Assembly (NCBI RefSeq): GCF_020630935.1
Contig: NZ_JAHDIG010000031.1
Location: 1 to 52,653 of the forward strand
Length of the DNA: 52,653 nucleotides
From: Bernardetia sp.
Lineage (GTDB): Bacteria; Bacteroidota; Bacteroidia; Cytophagales; Bernardetiaceae
Direction of reading: 5' to 3'
The notes beneath the pieces were generated by a model, which was not told the DNA's origin, made no database searches, and saw only the letters and a list, made by a program, of their open reading frames with translations. The position numbers and the translations under genes were made by a program. Each line of letters starts with the position of its first letter. Positions within the stretch are counted from its first letter, which is position 1. This document shows, one piece after another, positions 92-9,593 of the stretch.

Positions 92-694
92 CTAATAACT
101 TCCTTTTGCTGCAATGGCTTGCTTAATATGAGCCAAATGATGATTGGAGTGCCAAGCATAGTTGGCTACCAGTTCGAAAAGATTGAAATAAACTTGATGC
201 TCTGGGTGAAAAAAACGTTTTTCTAAATCTGACTCTGAAAGAGATTCAATAATAATATTTAGTTTTTGATGAACTCCTTCTAAAATAGATAGCGAAACAT
301 CAATAGATAATGTCATGTCTTGCAAAACAGCCCATTTGGCTTCTAAATAGGGTTTTATGGTAGGCTCATTTTCTGTAAGGGCAAGTTTGAATCGAATAAG
401 CGCATTGATATGACTGTCCGAACAGTGATGAATCACTTGTTTGATTGTCCAACCATTAGGGCGATATTTCCACTCTAACTGTTCATTATTTAGGTTTTCT
501 ATAACTTTTTTTAATCGGTTAGGAAAAGATGAAATATCATTTTTCCATTCTAACACTAGCTCTTTACGCTTTTCGGAATTTTTTTCTTTTGGAGCTTCAA
601 AATCTCCAATTGGATAGCGAAGTTTGTCTAATTGTATTTTATCCAATGTATTGTGTTTGACTTTATTCTTTATCAATATTTGCTTTAAACACAT
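92..694 (-). CDS. DinB/YfiT-family thiol transferase (BstA-like)
   Basis: This is a DinB-fold four-helix protein of the YfiT/BstA family. BstA enzymes transfer bacillithiol to electrophiles and carry a three-histidine metal site. Visible family features are the N-terminal LRYPIGDFE segment, WTIKQVIHHCSDSH (first metal His region), and the C-terminal HSNHHLAHI run that supplies the other two His ligands. The frame is open back to an ATG at 706, but that start sits in the loop of a perfect 10-bp palindrome (694-718). I therefore prefer the ATG at 694; a TTG at 646 would give a length closer to typical family members. It lies downstream of the E2-like gene on the same strand. The enzyme family is well supported, the bacillithiol role is inferred. 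Confidence 0.8.
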   Translation of the reverse strand: MCLKQILIKNKVKHNTLDKIQLDKLRYPIGDFEAPKEKNSEKRKELVLEWKNDISSFPNRLKKVIENLNNEQLEWKYRPNGWTIKQVIHHCSDSHINALIRFKLALTENEPTIKPYLEAKWAVLQDMTLSIDVSLSILEGVHQKLNIIIESLSESDLEKRFFHPEHQVYFNLFELVANYAWHSNHHLAHIKQAIAAKGSY

Positions 695-718
695 AACGCA
701 GACCAAAAGTCTGCGTTA
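694..718. repeat. 10-bp palindrome with 5-nt loop
   Basis: TAACGCAGAC is followed by a five-base loop and its exact reverse complement GTCTGCGTTA. It separates the E2-like gene from the BstA-like gene. There is no T-run on either side, so it is not a standard intrinsic terminator. It could be a REP-like repeat or an mRNA-processing hairpin. Confidence 0.7.
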
Positions 719-725
719 CATAAGA

Positions 726-1343
726 TTAGTGTATTCTGAATCCTCCTCGTTTTCCTTCGTGTGAAGATGAACTCTCTTGGGGAGCTTCTTCTTTTGGAGT
801 AGATTCTGTGCCAAAACCTGTTATTCTGAAACCAGAGCTTTTCTTGGCTGCACGCTCTTTGGTTGGGTCTGGCATTTCTTGTCTGTCGCAAGGAAAAATA
901 CCACTATTTCGCATACGTAAATACCAATTACGAGCTTCTTCGTTGGCTGGACTGTGTTCATTGGTAATTTCCATGTCGTATTGTAATGTACGAATCATGC
1001 GAATCATGTGTCTTCCCAACCCTTCCGACATTTCCCAAGTTCCGTAACACCAACGTCCATTTTTAAACCAATTGGGATGATAGACAAAAGGCTCATCTAG
1101 TAATTCCAACTGTGGTGGAGCTTGTGGATAGGCTTCAGGAAGTGTGATTTTTAACTTGTGTTGGTCTCTGTAAGTAGGCTGTGTGTCAAGAATACTACGT
1201 ACAAAAATTGTTACTTCATATTCTTCCACATGTGGAGGCGTACCTACAAGTGGCTCAAAAGATAGCAAAGAACCACTGATATTTTCCATTTCTTTATAAT
1301 CGTTTGCCAAACGACGGTTTCGTATTTGTTGAGGAGTAGCCAT
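726..1343 (-). CDS. E2-like (ubiquitin-conjugating enzyme fold) protein
   Basis: The protein has the layout of an E2 conjugating enzyme. An N-terminal helix (about residues 3-20) precedes the beta-meander, a YPQAPP segment (72-77) matches the E2 YPxxPP turn, and HPN at 89-91 is followed by Cys99, exactly eight residues after the Asn as in eukaryotic E2s. A later SPANEEARNWY segment (131-141) matches the E2 'P.N.EAA..Y' helix. E2 enzymes carry a ubiquitin-like protein as a thioester on this Cys. The C-terminal tail (about 165-205) is charged and Ser-rich and has two GFRI motifs (171-174 and 201-204). The gene upstream on the same strand encodes a ubiquitin-like protein, which strongly supports a conjugation role. 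No E1 or JAB protease is visible in the window. Start is the only ATG that includes the first helix. Confidence 0.85.
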   Translation of the reverse strand: MATPQQIRNRRLANDYKEMENISGSLLSFEPLVGTPPHVEEYEVTIFVRSILDTQPTYRDQHKLKITLPEAYPQAPPQLELLDEPFVYHPNWFKNGRWCYGTWEMSEGLGRHMIRMIRTLQYDMEITNEHSPANEEARNWYLRMRNSGIFPCDRQEMPDPTKERAAKKSSGFRITGFGTESTPKEEAPQESSSSHEGKRGGFRIH

Positions 1344-1466
1344 ACTTCAGTTATCAGTTATCAGTTATACAGTTTTTAATAAACCATCCTATATAACTTT
1401 ATAAATAATGTATTTTAAAATTCTAAAATCTAAACTTTATAGTTCTAAGTTTATTTCACTCTGAAT

Positions 1467-1721
1467 TTACCTTCCTGCATCTGTAGCTGGAATTACTCTA
1501 AAGGTAGTGCCATGCGTGATGCCTGCTTGCCCTAATGTTTGATGATTCAGCAGACGATTCCCTCCTTTTATAGCCAAATTGTATCCTTGCTGACTATTTT
1601 TGATAAAATCATGTGTAATAAGTTCGCCTATAATTTCTTGTACGCTCATCGTATCGTCTAGGGTAGCACTAATCATGCGTCCGTCTGTTGGGTGTACAAA
1701 GTTTACATTTACGTCTGCCAT
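1467..1721 (-). CDS. Ubiquitin-like beta-grasp protein
   Basis: This 84-residue protein aligns over its length with ubiquitin. It has a first hairpin (VNVNFVHPTDGRMISATL), a Thr-Met-Ser-Val-Gln-Glu-Ile helix start (about 24-35), a central strand with YNLAIKGGNRLL, and a final strand (GTTFRVIP) after an 'L.QAGI..G' turn equivalent to ubiquitin's 'L.DYNI..ES'. It ends in DAGR rather than a di-glycine, so it would need a different C-terminal chemistry, or it may act unconjugated like the YukD/EsaB proteins of type VII secretion. It lies 123 bp upstream of the E2-like gene on the same strand, probably in one transcription unit. No type VII secretion gene is nearby. Confidence 0.8.
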   Translation of the reverse strand: MADVNVNFVHPTDGRMISATLDDTMSVQEIIGELITHDFIKNSQQGYNLAIKGGNRLLNHQTLGQAGITHGTTFRVIPATDAGR

Positions 1722-4776: not shown

Positions 4777-6459
4777 ATGCGAATTACTCAAATTCATCTT
4801 CAAAATTTCAAAAGGTTTACTGACCTAACTATTAAAGATATTCCACAAGACTCTAAACTCGTCTTGCTTATTGGTGCAAATGGTTCTGGGAAATCTTCTG
4901 TTTTTGATGCTTTTGTTTTTGCTAATGAGATGTTTAAGAATAATATTAGCTACGAAAAACAATTTTTAGATTATTGGACAAAGGATGAAGAAAAAAACAC
5001 AACGATAGAAATAGAAGCAGATGAATTCAAAATTACTTCTCATGATACTTGGGGACTTTTCAAAGGACAAACAAGTAAACCTGTTTATAGCCCAGATTCA
5101 AAATTTATATTTTATGGAAGAACAAGTTTTAGACAAATACCCAGATTGACTAGAAAAAGTTTAGGGCAACAAGAGTTTGATTTTGAAAAAGACTCTGACC
5201 GACCTAAGTATTTTATTGACAGAGACGAACGTTTTGAAAATGATGTAGAGAAAATTACTGGTATTATTTTGAATGATGTTTTTATAAAAAAACAATCAGG
5301 AGAAGAGATAAATCAAAAATACATAGAGCCTATCAATAATTCATTACAAAATATTTTTGGAGATGAAAATGGAACGAAGCTAGAATTATTATCAATTATT
5401 CCTCCTTTAGATGGAAAGGTTGCACAGATAAATTTTAGAAAAGGAAACACAGAGTTTCACTACAATCAGCTTTCGGCTGGAGAAAAAGAAGTGGTAAATT
5501 TGCTTATTAATCTCATTAGTAGAAAAGACTTGTATCAAGAAACGATTTACTTTTTTGATGAAATAGATTTGCACCTAAATACTAAAATTCAGTATAATCT
5601 TTTAAAAGAAATTACTGAAAACTGGATTCCAGAAAAAAGTCAGCTTTGGACAGCTTCTCATTCTTTGGGTTTTATAGAATACGCCAAGCAATCTGAACAC
5701 GCCTCCATCATTGATTTTGATTCTTTAGATTTTGACTTACCCCAAATATTACAGCCAGAACTTAAAAACAATCCAGATATTTATGAAATAGCCATTGGAA
5801 AAGAGTTTTTACCTTCCATTTTCAAAGATTTTAATTTGTTTTTTGTAGAAAATAAAGACGCAAAACTGTATGGAAGTACAGGAATTGAAAATACTGTTTT
5901 TATTGCTGCCAATACAAGAAATGATGTGTATCACAAAACACGTACAACAGAATTAAAAGGACTTGTAGATAGGGATTTTCTCTCTGATGAAGATATTTTT
6001 TTGATAAAAGAGAATTATCCAAAACTATCTATTTTGAAATATTACAGTATAGAAAACTATCTGTATCACCCAGATAACTTAGAGGAATATTATGCTGAAT
6101 CAAATAAAGAGTTTGATAAAGTAGCATATATTGGTGCTTTAGTGGAAGAAAAAAACAAAGTTGTGAGTAGAATTTCATTACGTATAGCTTCTGAACGTGA
6201 GAGTTATCCTTATTTTGGAGAATCAGAATTTACAAACAAGAATAAAGAACTTCCCAAGCGATTTAAAAAAGGCAAATCTAATTTCGAACAAGTAGAAATC
6301 ATTGTTTCCTACTTAGAAAGTAACGACCTAGAAGTTTTTTATAAAGTGCTTCCTATGAAAGACTATTGTAAAAGTTTAGAAGCAAGACAAAATATTGATA
6401 AGAATAAGCTAGTCAAGACAGAATGGTTTAAAAAGCAGATAGAGAATATCATTTCATAA
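4777..6459 (+). CDS. AAA ATPase fused to DUF4435/TOPRIM-like domain (PARIS AriAB-like)
   Basis: The N-terminal part is an ABC/SMC-like AAA ATPase of the AAA_15/AAA_21 type. It has Walker A GANGSGKSS (33-41), signature LSAGEKE (232-238), Walker B TIYFFDEID (256-264) and a switch His in TASHS (292-296). The C-terminal part has DUF4435/TOPRIM-like acidic motifs: FFVENKD with Glu358, GLVDRDF with Asp398 and Asp400, and YYSIENYL with Glu426. An ATPase joined to a DUF4435 domain is the arrangement of the PARIS antiphage system, where AriA (ATPase) and AriB (DUF4435 nuclease) are sometimes merged. OLD-family nucleases have a related layout. All nucleotide-binding motifs look intact. A GrpB-family gene starts 6 bp after the stop, so they are almost certainly co-transcribed. 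Domain calls are firm; a defence role is inference. Confidence 0.85.
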   Translation: MRITQIHLQNFKRFTDLTIKDIPQDSKLVLLIGANGSGKSSVFDAFVFANEMFKNNISYEKQFLDYWTKDEEKNTTIEIEADEFKITSHDTWGLFKGQTSKPVYSPDSKFIFYGRTSFRQIPRLTRKSLGQQEFDFEKDSDRPKYFIDRDERFENDVEKITGIILNDVFIKKQSGEEINQKYIEPINNSLQNIFGDENGTKLELLSIIPPLDGKVAQINFRKGNTEFHYNQLSAGEKEVVNLLINLISRKDLYQETIYFFDEIDLHLNTKIQYNLLKEITENWIPEKSQLWTASHSLGFIEYAKQSEHASIIDFDSLDFDLPQILQPELKNNPDIYEIAIGKEFLPSIFKDFNLFFVENKDAKLYGSTGIENTVFIAANTRNDVYHKTRTTELKGLVDRDFLSDEDIFLIKENYPKLSILKYYSIENYLYHPDNLEEYYAESNKEFDKVAYIGALVEEKNKVVSRISLRIASERESYPYFGESEFTNKNKELPKRFKKGKSNFEQVEIIVSYLESNDLEVFYKVLPMKDYCKSLEARQNIDKNKLVKTEWFKKQIENIIS

Positions 6460-6465
6460 AAAGTT

Positions 6466-7002
6466 ATGCTAATCCAAAAATACAATCCTAACTGGATTTT
6501 TGATTTTGAAAAAATAAAGCAAAAACTAGAAACTGTCTTACCCAAAAATACAAAAGTAGAACACATAGGGAGTACAGCAGTTCCTAATTTAGCAGCAAAA
6601 GATATTATTGATATAGACATTGTTTATTTTGATGAAGCCGATACAACTTTTCAAAAAGTCAAAGAAGATTTAGTAAAACGAGGCTATTATCATAATGGAA
6701 ATCAAGGAATCGAAGATAGAGAAGTATTCAAACGAGAGAAAGAAAATGCTGATGAAATTTTAGATAAAATAAGCCACCATTTATATGTTTGCCCGTCTGA
6801 TAGTGAAGAACTGAAACGCCACTTGCTTTTTAGAAATTTTTTGAGAGAAAATGAAAAAGCTAGACAAGAATATGAGAGTATAAAGTTTGATATTGCACTA
6901 AGAACAAATCAAATGAAAAAAGAATATGCAGAACTCAAAGAGAAAGAAGCAAAAGATTTTATTGAGAAAACGATACAAAAAGCTAGAGAACAAACTGTAT
7001 GA
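6466..7002 (+). CDS. GrpB-family (UPF0157) nucleotidyltransferase-like protein
   Basis: This 178-residue protein matches the GrpB/UPF0157 family, a branch of the polymerase-beta-like nucleotidyltransferase fold. It has the GS-containing motif VEHIGSTAVPNLAAKD and the following acidic pair in IIDIDIVY, which would bind metal. The family's second conserved part is present as HHLYVC followed by LKRHLLFRNFLREN and the LK-rich C-terminal helix. Family substrates are not established. It starts 6 bp after the ATPase-DUF4435 gene and its stop overlaps the next start (ATGA), so the three genes form one unit. That makes it a possible partner or effector of the ATPase. Confidence 0.85.
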   Translation: MLIQKYNPNWIFDFEKIKQKLETVLPKNTKVEHIGSTAVPNLAAKDIIDIDIVYFDEADTTFQKVKEDLVKRGYYHNGNQGIEDREVFKREKENADEILDKISHHLYVCPSDSEELKRHLLFRNFLRENEKARQEYESIKFDIALRTNQMKKEYAELKEKEAKDFIEKTIQKAREQTV

Positions 7003-7838
7003 AAAAAATAATTTTGTCAGCACTATTTCTATTAATAACTATTACTATTTGTTTAGGACAAGATACTCTACATATAGATAAGGAAGTGTTTTTTGAAAAA
7101 GAGATGGTTTTGGCTGATATTGATTCTTATGGCAGAATGTATATCTGCGATACAAAAGGAAATATAAAACGCTTAGACAGTTTGGGGAAAACAGAAGTTC
7201 TCTATTCGCCGTCATCTCCTATTGTTCCTACTAATTTTACGACTCAAAACCCGAATCAAATTTTTGTTTTTTATCAAGAGTTACAAGAATGGGTTATCTT
7301 GAATCGTTTTTTGACAGAAATAGAACGTTACAGAGTGTCTGAAAAAATAGAAACAAATAATCAGTACGGACAAGTGGGTTTTGTACGTTTGCTTGTGCCT
7401 GCTCCGAACAACACACTTTGGTTTTTCGATGAATCTGATTTTAGCTTGAAAAATTATGATGTTTTGAATAAACAAATTTTATCTCAAACGCCTTTAGATT
7501 TGGTATTGAGCAATGAAGAATATCCTATCACACATCTACAATTTTATCAAGGGCAGATATTTTTGGGGGTAGAGCAGCAGGGCATCTTGGTTTTTGATAG
7601 TTTTGGAAACTATAAAACCACATTAGAATATCCACACTGGAAATCAATTTCTTTTGAAAAGGAAGCTATTTTCATTGTTGCAGAAAATAAAATTATAAAA
7701 AAGAGCTTGTATAAAAATGGTTTGGATGAGATACCTCTTGAAAAAAATATAATTAGTAAGTTAGAATATTTTTTTCCTTATAGCTTACAATTTTATGCAC
7801 TAACCAAAACAAAAATGTATGTCTATACTACAAAATAG
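6999..7838 (+). CDS. Secreted beta-propeller-like hypothetical protein
   Basis: A Sec signal peptide (residues 1-20, ending in ICLGQ) is followed by about 260 residues of alternating short strands. Segments such as DIDSYGRMYICDTKGNIKRL, and IFLGVEQQGILVFDSFGN are typical propeller blades, as in NHL- or LVIVD-like proteins. I do not recognise a specific family. Its start overlaps the GrpB-family stop by four bases (ATGA), so it is translationally coupled to that cytoplasmic gene, although it is probably periplasmic. Confidence 0.75.
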   Translation: MKKIILSALFLLITITICLGQDTLHIDKEVFFEKEMVLADIDSYGRMYICDTKGNIKRLDSLGKTEVLYSPSSPIVPTNFTTQNPNQIFVFYQELQEWVILNRFLTEIERYRVSEKIETNNQYGQVGFVRLLVPAPNNTLWFFDESDFSLKNYDVLNKQILSQTPLDLVLSNEEYPITHLQFYQGQIFLGVEQQGILVFDSFGNYKTTLEYPHWKSISFEKEAIFIVAENKIIKKSLYKNGLDEIPLEKNIISKLEYFFPYSLQFYALTKTKMYVYTTK

Positions 7839-8014
7839 AAACAAATTAGACCTAACATTCAATTTTTTTAAGATTCTCTCGTTTAATTAGGGAGTATTGC
7901 TTATTTTTGGAGTACTTATTTTGTTTTGATAAAGTAGTAAAAATAGACATTCTAACATCAAGAACTGACTAAAAAGAAATTTTACATCCTATATAAATAT
8001 TAGTTATGACTATT

Positions 8015-8887
8015 ATGAAAAAAACATTTTTTCTCTCTCTTCTTTTTTGCCTTGCTCTAACATATCAGTTGCAAGCACAAGGATTTTCATATTCGGGTTT
8101 TAAGGGAGGATTATCTATTTCTCGTATGCCTATGTCTTTTGAAACAGCACGTTTTGTTGAAATAGATGAGGAAGATCTACTTCAATTACCTCTTCTTGAG
8201 GTAGAGAATACTAAAGCAAACGGAAAATTTCAAGTAGGAGGACAGTTTGGCGTATTTGCTGGAAAAGAGTTTACAAAAGCAATAGGAGTTCGTATGGAAC
8301 TCAATTATGTAGAAATGGGAAGGGTAGATACAATCAATTTTAATCAGCGAAACAAATACAAGTTGCGTTATTTTTCTTTAGACCCAATGTTACAGATTCG
8401 TATTGCTCCAAATAGTCGTAATCACTTCTATATCTTAGCAGGCCCTTCTGCTCGTCTGCTTATAGGAAATACAGCTTCTACTGTAGGTAATGAATCTAAT
8501 ATAATGAATCAAAGAATTGCAAACATTCGCCAGACAGATATAGGTGCAAGTTTTGGATTTAGTTATTTGATAGAACTTACTCGTTATGCATATCTTACTT
8601 TAGATGCTCGTGCTTATTATGGACTACGCAATATAGCTGAAAAACCAAAAGAAAATACAGTAGCTACTTCAAAATATGTAAATGCTTATAATGATTTGGT
8701 TACAGCAAGTTTATCTATCCCTCCAAGAGATGTAAGTGAAGAAACAGTAACTACACTTGCTGAAGTACAACAATATGGAGTAAATGACAATACAAATATT
8801 TCAAATCAAGGTGCAATATTTAGCATAGGTTTTTGTGTGCCATTGCGTCCACCAGCAGATAAACTGATTAAGATGAAGAAACAATAA
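8015..8887 (+). CDS. Outer membrane beta-barrel protein (PorT/OMP_b-brl-like)
   Basis: I chose the ATG followed by AAAAAA (MKKTFFLSLLFCLALTYQLQAQ) because it gives a standard signal peptide; an ATG three codons earlier is also possible. The mature part begins FSYSGFKGGLSISR, the usual entry of the small eight-to-ten-strand barrels common in Bacteroidota. Many aromatic-ended alternating strands follow (VGGQFGVFAGKEF, GVRMELNYVEMG, YFSLDPMLQIRI, FYILAGPSARLLIG), and a final strand GAIFSIGFCVPL. The substrate is unknown. It is monocistronic, with its own terminator just downstream. Confidence 0.8.
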   Translation: MKKTFFLSLLFCLALTYQLQAQGFSYSGFKGGLSISRMPMSFETARFVEIDEEDLLQLPLLEVENTKANGKFQVGGQFGVFAGKEFTKAIGVRMELNYVEMGRVDTINFNQRNKYKLRYFSLDPMLQIRIAPNSRNHFYILAGPSARLLIGNTASTVGNESNIMNQRIANIRQTDIGASFGFSYLIELTRYAYLTLDARAYYGLRNIAEKPKENTVATSKYVNAYNDLVTASLSIPPRDVSEETVTTLAEVQQYGVNDNTNISNQGAIFSIGFCVPLRPPADKLIKMKKQ

Positions 8888-8911
8888 AAAGTAAACACAC
8901 TTACTATTATT

Positions 8912-8946
8912 AACCTAGTACTATTACATTTGTACTAGGTTTTTTT
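8912..8946 (+). terminator. Intrinsic terminator
   Basis: A perfect 10-bp stem AACCTAGTAC/GTACTAGGTT with a 10-nt loop is followed by a run of T. It lies 25 bp after the stop of the outer membrane barrel gene. Confidence 0.85.
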
Positions 8947-8981
8947 ATTCCCTATTGAAAGAAAGTATTGTTCTTTCTTAG

Positions 8982-8989
8982 TACCTTTG
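8982..8989 (+). promoter_or_regulatory. Bacteroidota-type -7 box (TACCTTTG)
   Basis: An exact TAnnTTTG match 76 nt upstream of the next ATG and just after a terminator, which is where a promoter is needed. The -33 TTTG is not clear. Confidence 0.45.
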
Positions 8990-9065
8990 CAACTTCTTTT
9001 AGCAAAACAGTAGAAACAAAATTAGTTTCTATACTATTTTATAATTGTAATTTTTAACTAGCAAT

Positions 9066-9593
9066 ATGATAAAGTTTATAAAATTTATTTGGATGCTCTC
9101 TATGCTTGCCGTAATGGGAGTTCTTTTGTATGAAAATGTAATTTTGAAGCCTCCTGTTACTATCAAAATCGATGAAGTAGGTGGAGTTTTCAATCTTACA
9201 AAAAATGGATTTTTCTATTTGTTTTTAGCAGCTATTGTAGTTTGTAATGGCATACTTCTGATTTTAGGGACATTAATTCCTAATTTACCACAACAATTTT
9301 TACCTATTCCAAAACGAAAATTTTGGGCAAAAAATCAAGCTACACGCCAAATGTTGCTCAAAAACTTCAAACTTTGGACAAAAGGCATCGGTATTTTTAT
9401 CAATCTTTTTATAATCATTTATTTGGTTTCTGTTCAAGTAGAAAATGGAGCAACACCAAAATTTCCTTTTGATGCTTCTATTTTATCTACCGTAGTTGCT
9501 ATACTTTTGGGAGGCTGGTTCATATTGTTTTTTGCTTGGTTTGGAATGAATGATACAGCTGCTCAAAAAGTAAAGGTGGAAGCAAGAAGCTAA
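9066..9593 (+). CDS. Four-helix membrane protein, function unknown
   Basis: A 175-residue membrane protein with predicted helices near 5-22, 50-72, 108-127 and 140-160. Between helices 2 and 3 lies a conserved-looking cytoplasmic stretch, LPIPKRKFWAKNQATRQ, somewhat like the 'P.R.YW' loop of DUF1648/SdpI-type proteins, but the match is too weak to assign. The gene has its own promoter-like box and no close partner. Confidence 0.65.
   Translation: MIKFIKFIWMLSMLAVMGVLLYENVILKPPVTIKIDEVGGVFNLTKNGFFYLFLAAIVVCNGILLILGTLIPNLPQQFLPIPKRKFWAKNQATRQMLLKNFKLWTKGIGIFINLFIIIYLVSVQVENGATPKFPFDASILSTVVAILLGGWFILFFAWFGMNDTAAQKVKVEARS

Follow-up and report, generated by a model that had tools for sequence, protein, structure and literature searches.

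The genome of Bernardetia sp. (RefSeq GCF_020630935.1) appears to encode a complete ubiquitin-like conjugation pathway in its core genome, together with many candidate membrane-bound E3 ligases; judging from sequence comparison, we give this reading a probability of about 0.7. What the genomes compared show directly are its components with their catalytic motifs, how well these are conserved and occur together, and how their genes are linked in distant relatives. Most of what is known of ubiquitin-like systems in bacteria concerns compact operons, the best studied of them in anti-phage defence. The window, i.e., the whole stretch of DNA analysed here (52,653 nucleotides), is all of contig C31, from an assembly of 4.75 Mb on 153 contigs that is 97.4% complete. 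Near its left end, it carries adjacent genes for a ubiquitin-like protein (UBL) and an E2 homologue, for which the original prediction had considered a minimal or divergent system in case the missing components did not lie beyond that end. With an E1, an E2, a UBL, two JAB genes and, unforeseen in that prediction, candidate RING-type E3s present in the genome, the system is not minimal.

Table 1. Features discussed in the text; positions given without a contig or locus label are those of the window.
Feature	Position	Strand	Content or basis
JAB1, JAB/MPN metalloprotease gene, first 19 codons	1..59	-	Overlap and frame; JAMM motif; Pfam JAB in relatives
DinB_2-family gene between E2 and JAB	92..706	-	Pfam DinB_2 (1.7e-20); neighbourhoods
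Perfect 10-bp inverted repeat, loop 5, just past the E2 stop codon	694..718	-	Direct sequence reading
E2, ubiquitin-conjugating-enzyme (UBC) homologue, 205 aa	726..1343	-	phmmer; UQ_con; motifs; Foldseek
UBL, single-domain YukD/EsaB-type beta-grasp protein, 84 aa	1467..1721	-	Pfam YukD; AlphaFold2; Foldseek
JAB2	G000:C48:9311-9760 (L057 7288-7623)		Unlinked second JAB gene
SAR202 contig	L080 5488-12185		UBL, E2, JAB, Cys-less UBC domain fused to RING-like finger, RING-like protein, E1
Viral-collection contig	L156 2382-6022		By reading: DAFTGAPL...CxxC...CxxC protein, DnaJ-like, E1, UBL (LVAG end), E2 (HPN...C), JAB, in one run
Contractile-injection neighbourhoods	L037 97-3710; L074 1691-2212, 8350-9885; L033 3176-3694; L072 1293-5438; L153 3627-4124		

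The E2 homologue carries HPN at residues 89-91, Cys99 eight residues past N91, YPQAPP at 72-77 and SPAN at 131-134. The HPN motif, the spacing to the cysteine and the YPxxPP turn had been predicted, and all were confirmed in the open reading frame. A phmmer search against the PDB aligned residues 9-141 with Rad6/Ubc2 (E = 3e-6), including the SPAN stretch near the C-terminal helices. The protein scored below the cut-off of Pfam UQ_con (25.5 versus 27 bits, E = 1.1e-5) and had no match in NCBIfam; its relative on the SAR202 contig exceeded the UQ_con cut-off with 40.4 bits. The structure model was weak (pLDDT 60, and <50 at residues 93-105, around Cys99), with the element order H-E-E-E-E-H-H. 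Searched with this model, Foldseek returned exclusively E2s or E2 fusions as its best 50 PDB rows, and VIA structural comparison yielded Z scores up to 10.5 with an rmsd of 3.0 over 103 aligned residues. By sequence and model, a UBC fold is supported, while the weak model does not support the active-site geometry. HPN with a downstream Cys was found in all 18 E2s listed, the window's own included, the Cys standing 8 residues past N in 11 and 12 residues past it in 7. These counts of E2, UBL and JAB motifs leave out the E2 and UBL of G744, the E2 and JAB of G544, all three proteins of the viral-collection contig, and a further UBC domain at the SAR202 locus, which has HPN and no nearby Cys. Within the genus, E2 identity was 89-90%, with the core almost unchanged. 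The inverted repeat that follows the E2 gene may terminate UBL-E2 transcription; a terminator scan did not call it, and terminator and promoter scans were no richer than those of shuffled sequence.

Next to the E2 gene, a protein of 84 residues with ubiquitin-like order of strands and helix had been proposed, and this was borne out. UBL passed the Pfam YukD (PF08817) cut-off (30.4 versus 27 bits), its AlphaFold2 model (pLDDT 88) has the beta-grasp order E-E-H-E-E, and Foldseek matched the model to structures of SUMO, ubiquitin, Caldiarchaeum ubiquitin (6fno, 6fj7) and Bacillus subtilis YukD. The orthologue in the sister-genus genome (G007) stayed below the YukD cut-off with 20 bits, and phmmer with UBL alone found no meaningful sequence match in the PDB. 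A profile that combines seven bacterial UBLs covered ubiquitin residues 9-76, up to its end, with E values of ∼4e-4 to 2e-3 against the single ubiquitins listed and lower values against repeats and some variants; the tail glycine thus falls at the position of the ubiquitin C terminus. UBL ends in IPATDAGR, and Gly83 was invariant across 12 aligned sequences; the family UBL has this single tail glycine, not GG. A glycine lies within the last 5 residues in 19 of the 20 UBLs listed, the tail glycine being absent from Crinalium UBL1. The second Crinalium protein, UBL2, gave a weak result in profile comparison with the A6 UBL set (probability 25%). Across six genomes of the genus, UBL identity was 93-99%, and its mean over seven genomes (93.8) was the joint top value of 25 ORFs compared, tied with a methyltransferase compared in two genomes. 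From its sequence and model, UBL qualifies as a beta-grasp protein with a conserved near-C-terminal glycine and as a candidate conjugatable ubiquitin-like protein.

That UBL is instead a sulfur carrier of the ThiS/MoaD/CysO kind, or a noncovalent assembly factor such as YukD of type VII secretion, with the E2-like protein as a scaffold, appears very improbable. ThiF-type E1s serve sulfur transfer too, and UBL shares the beta-grasp family of YukD/EsaB by its Pfam match. However, we know of no sulfur transfer that needs an E2, and the E2 active-site residues are kept in every E2 listed. UBL further differs from YukD/EsaB by its conserved tail glycine, by its E1, E2 and JAB partners and by its surroundings: by eye, no type VII genes were noticed among the ORFs that surround the locus in eight family genomes. 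In favour of a noncovalent role, YukD is reported to be unconjugated in PMC1779556 (Iyer 2006), which also defines bacterial E1/E2/JAB/Ubl neighbourhoods and places YukD with ESAT-6 export.

According to the original prediction, the window holds neither an E1 nor a JAB-type protease, and the missing components might lie beyond its left edge. Indeed, among its ORFs we saw neither an E1 nor a complete JAB gene; its first 59 bp, however, belong to a JAB gene (JAB1) that the end of the contig truncates. A 55-bp exact overlap with the end of contig C101 (G000:C101) continues the frame into the intact gene, so that the protease does lie off the left edge, whereas the E1 is encoded on another contig. 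The JAB proteins of G001 and G007 exceeded the Pfam JAB cut-off, and the JAMM signature HxHP...S..D occurs in 16 of 16 JABs listed; JAB2 and the G744 JAB have this signature and lack the ExGG part in the motif listing, in which the JAB2 frame begins late. JAB1 is 72-77% identical within the genus and 40% identical to its G007 counterpart; in G004, it lies ∼14 kb off on the opposite strand. JAB2 is a second, unlinked JAB present in all seven genus genomes, 39-40% identical to JAB1. Over a 111-aa part of its frame, its identity in two genomes was 88% and 93%, versus the lower range of JAB1, and by reading its motif appears to resemble the operon JAB of G007. The DinB_2-family gene between E2 and JAB1 was present at the locus in six of seven genus genomes. 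We rejected it as a component, since the loci of G006 and G007 lack it; it is thus probably outside the system. Opposite JAB1, at L056 (G000:C101) 6512-9358, lie genes that by reading are ThiM-, ThiE-, TenA- and ThiD-like, in a genome in which no ThiS was found; these thiamine genes perhaps serve salvage only. Elsewhere in the window, at 4777-7002, a gene for a 560-aa AAA/SMC-like ATPase is followed by a GrpB-like gene (by reading).

The E1, of 410 aa, is the only ThiF-family protein of the genome and is encoded on contig C29, unlinked to UBL-E2. Against the PDB, its best match was eukaryotic Uba1 (∼2e-25), with ThiF (6e-23) and MoeB (8e-22) close behind, and it scored far below the NCBIfam ThiF and MoeB cut-offs. 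A ThiS/MoaD family protein was searched for in the genome and none was found, with a control search for ThiS positive in 11 of 14 known genomes; a role of the E1 as MoeB or ThiF in cofactor synthesis is therefore unlikely. Cys194 and the CxxC and CxxH set were invariant in the seven aligned E1s, and identity within the genus was 91-94%. A near-full-length E1 was present in all eight family genomes that have E2. Among the three family genomes without E2, two had no E1 match and one had a partial match of 27% identity. JAB followed the same pattern, 8 of 11, as E2 and E1. In the other seven family genomes with E1, it was likewise distant from UBL-E2 or on another contig, and we discarded the idea that it adjoins the UBL-E2 locus in the family. 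Since the E1 is unlinked in Bernardetia, its membership in the system rests on co-occurrence across these 11 genomes and on homology. Directly upstream of the E1, at L017 (G000:C29) 6447-8272, are a DNA methyltransferase gene and, by reading, one for a HindIII-type-like restriction enzyme. Both genes also occur beside the E1 in G004, the methyltransferase gene in G006, and neither was seen there in G001, G003 and G005.

Within the family, UBL, E2 and JAB are linked in most genomes, and UBL adjoins E2 in all eight loci. The order UBL-E2-DinB-JAB was found in G001, G002, G003 and G005, and UBL-E2-JAB without DinB in G006 and G007. Altogether, the system was present in seven of seven genus genomes examined and in one sister-genus genome. 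In wider searches, a profile of window-type E2s had matches in 6 of 395 class genomes, and a wider E2 profile in 5 of 13 genomes within one of the matched families and in 4 of 395 genomes of a phylum search (G000, G212, G331 and G544). The class-distant G544 has, adjoining a JAB, an E2-like gene whose profile match is interrupted by a stop codon; no E1 or UBL was seen beside it. A search of plasmids for E2 relatives retrieved a single one, on a plasmid of the cyanobacterium Crinalium with the order E1-UBL-UBL-E2-JAB and an E2 35% identical to that of the window; E2s of the G011 type were absent from plasmids, and phage GenBank records held no E2 relative.

In these distant loci, the E1 is physically linked to the other genes. 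An E1 with Cys194 lies beside UBL and E2 in G212, G331, G393, G011 and G376 and, by reading, also by UBL and E2 in G316; in G209, it lies a few genes apart. Distant-locus E1s align with P0003 along their whole length, and the alignment takes in a C-terminal domain that ends in LG[IV]PxL...EL. In G011, G376 and G316, E1, UBL and E2 are followed by a pair of large proteins, secreted or membrane-bound, then by JAB and another membrane protein; the ORFs listed for G212, G331 and G209 showed no JAB, and the contig of G393 stops too early to show one. The original prediction was to be refuted if neighbourhoods in related genomes held no E1 or protease; four distant relatives instead have E1, UBL, E2 and JAB in one run, namely G011, G376, G316 and the Crinalium plasmid. 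The same parts were found on the SAR202 contig, on a Dulcicalothrix contig (where the E1 is cut by the stretch) and on one viral-collection contig. Further along this last contig, there is by reading a lysozyme- and holin-like pair. Some distant E1-UBL-E2 genes neighbour contractile-injection genes: TssF over its cut-off in G376, and an eCIS core, Pvc16_N and PAAR in G212; an Rhs protein lies by the Ubl locus of G316, and a weak gp25 match by that of G209. Our literature search found nothing that ties Ubl or E2 proteins to contractile injection.

That the genes form an anti-phage or conflict system of the Bil, CBASS-E1E2 or JAB kind we consider distinctly improbable. In favour of it, the E1 gives partial matches to PADLOC E1-E2 models (best 2.5e-17) and a match to BilD (3e-8), the E2 and JAB match PADLOC-type models weakly, the E1 adjoins methyltransferase and restriction-type genes in G000 and G004, and the same module occurs on the cyanobacterial plasmid and on the viral-collection contig. 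In the family, however, the parts are dispersed, present in every genus genome and highly conserved; in G001, G003 and G005, the E1 has no methyltransferase or restriction-type neighbour; and the E2 has HPN, not the CEHH of Bil. Bil (BilABCD) does share E1, E2, Ubl and JAB with the Bernardetia system. According to PMC11354881, BilB has CEHH, BilA two ubiquitin domains, and BilD an inactive and an active adenylation domain. In contrast, Bernardetia has HPN, a single-domain UBL, one ThiF domain and no four-gene operon. Because of the HPN of the E2 and the single domain of UBL, membership in Bil was rejected, the unlinked E1 being a further difference.

Besides these enzymes, the genome encodes a large family of RING-like membrane proteins. 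A search of the genome with Prok-RING_1 (PF14446) returned three matches, all below the cut-off, which have in common the N-terminal motif DPITGD...DxVVxCxxCKSxF...SWxY...HCxQ. Ten such domains all matched Prok-RING_1 at E <=0.05, the best at 28.3 versus 29.1 bits, and five of ten full-length proteins scanned did so at E <=0.01. A profile of the ten domains had 41 matches in G000, 23, 17, 39, 56, 52 and 12 in the other genus genomes and 8 in G007; three family genomes without E2 had 0, 0 and 0. Copies lie a few kilobases from UBL-E2-JAB in G002 and G006 and from the E1 in G003 and G004. We read 27 proteins from the genome with the 41 matches, namely 26 among the matches listed and one neighbour. 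In 26 of the 27, CxxC...HC is kept, which gives four zinc ligands and not eight, and in 26 of 27 a hydrophobic stretch follows the domain and none precedes it (own hydropathy script). The 27 proteins fall into 16 sequence clusters, and mean identity is 56% in the domain versus 15% in the remainder.

Class-wide, the profile matched in 3 of 395 genomes, all with E2, with at most 15 candidates scored per genome. G212 and G331 have a match in a membrane protein two genes past E2, which in G212 also carries vWA and FHA domains, and a related stretch, DP[IY]T...[IV]VxxC...W...C, is found in the membrane protein after JAB in G011, G316, G744 and G376. Profile-profile comparison joined the two RING-like groups with a probability of 96.5 (E = 9e-10, 35 columns). 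Among 174 distant-locus proteins, the five above the HMMER inclusion threshold were four operon membrane proteins and the SAR202 operon protein, and the operon membrane proteins of G376 and G316 were below it. After addition of operon rows, the wider profile matched in 10 of 395 class genomes: seven with a known E2, G209, and two represented by 43-aa frames (E = 9e-4) taken for chance matches. G209 had been negative in our first E2 search; around its RING-like match, however, we saw an E1, a UBL ending in PIAG and an E2 (HPN...C), so that in eight of the ten genomes E1, UBL and E2 were seen. The RING-like match thereby led to an overlooked Ubl locus, and since the first E2 profile missed both G209 and G316, the 385 genomes that had no RING-like match may hold further divergent E2s. 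The G209 membrane protein has the pattern CxxC...CxH...HxxC...C...C and matches zf-RING_16 below the cut-off (E = 0.0013). Similar sequences occur at Ubl loci of Bacteroidota and of the SAR202 contig and, as judged only by eye or by a weak profile, at those of two cyanobacteria and a phage-like contig. This distribution suggests that a RING-like protein is a general, overlooked partner of Ubl loci.

A different role for these proteins would leave the conjugation pathway intact: the RING-like membrane proteins could be substrates, receptors or readers of UBL and not E3 ligases. In keeping with this, the copies read have only four zinc ligands, the Pfam match is below its cut-off, and the RING-like profile gave chance-level matches in the PDB, none of them credible. 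The eight-ligand cross-brace is not found in the 26 of 27 Bernardetia copies that keep CxxC...HC alone. The G209 homologue, however, has a fuller ligand set along with its weak zf-RING_16 match, and bacterial RINGs that have lost two ligand pairs are already described (PMC11354881). Moreover, a constant domain joined to divergent remainders is the pattern of an adaptor, as would be expected of an E2-binding part placed on many target-binding parts. On balance, we regard the nonligase roles as unlikely and favour the interpretation of the RING-like proteins as candidate E3s.

If the parts act as their homologies suggest, JAB1 and JAB2 would first trim the UBL precursor tail past Gly83, which is one residue here and four in G007. 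The E1 (C29) would adenylate the C-terminal glycine of UBL and take UBL onto Cys194, from which it would be handed on to Cys99 of the E2. The loaded E2 would be bound by the constant N-terminal zinc domain of the RING-like membrane proteins, whose divergent C-terminal halves would guide UBL to target proteins located at the membrane or close to it; JAB1 and JAB2 would strip it from these targets again. Catalysis and conjugation, E3 activity, the substrates and the role of the modification are what we infer here from gene content and motifs. Organized in this way, the system could form a eukaryote-like hierarchy in which one E1, one E2, one modifier and two deubiquitinase-like JABs are combined with dozens of membrane RING-type E3s with diversified target halves, acting as a housekeeping or envelope code; we see the chances for and against this extension as even.

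Burroughs, Iyer and Aravind reportedly described, in 2011, bacterial Ubl systems with E1, E2, RING-type E3 and JAB, the RING being of the Prok-RING_1 type. The Bernardetia system has the same parts list, with JAB beside Ubl and E2, and the SAR202 locus (SAR202 by title) resembles these systems in keeping UBL, E2, JAB, RING and E1 together. In contrast to them, the Bernardetia genes are scattered, the E1 is unlinked and the system is core to the genus. RING-like matches also differ in number, with 8-56 per genome in the E2-positive genomes of the Bernardetia family versus one each in distant Bacteroidota among the candidates scored. The Caldiarchaeum/Asgard operon, as given in PMC5654768, comprises ubiquitin, an E1-like and an E2-like protein, a small RING and an Rpn11 that cleaves pro-ubiquitin. 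Bernardetia shares these parts, and the UBL fold matches the Caldiarchaeum structures noted above; the archaeal genes are operonic whereas those of Bernardetia are scattered, in a comparison made at the level of parts. Operons with JAB, E1, RING and a Ubl-E2 fusion are known (PMC7159879), sporadic bacterial E2 and E3 homologues occur, some in complete operons (PMC5654768), and human-type E2 homologues are reported only as single instances, from four bacterial phyla that do not include Bacteroidota (PMC11354881). Across titles and abstract openings, a scope that takes in few subscription papers, we found no report of a system in the Bernardetia family or of a bacterial E3 expansion. Bacterial E1/E2/RING/JAB systems as such are thus already known, and as far as we found, the dispersed layout and the E3-like expansion are new.

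In the Bernardetia family, the pathway looks like core machinery, with a modifier among the most conserved genes compared, and the would-be target-choosing part has multiplied as in eukaryotes. If its activity is confirmed, this would be an unusual complexity for a bacterial ubiquitin-like system, and if the eukaryote-like hierarchy holds true, it would be the first bacterial E3 expansion known to us. It would make testable in a bacterium how a pathway with one E1 and one E2 gains many specificities, and whether a half-RING with one zinc can act as an E3.
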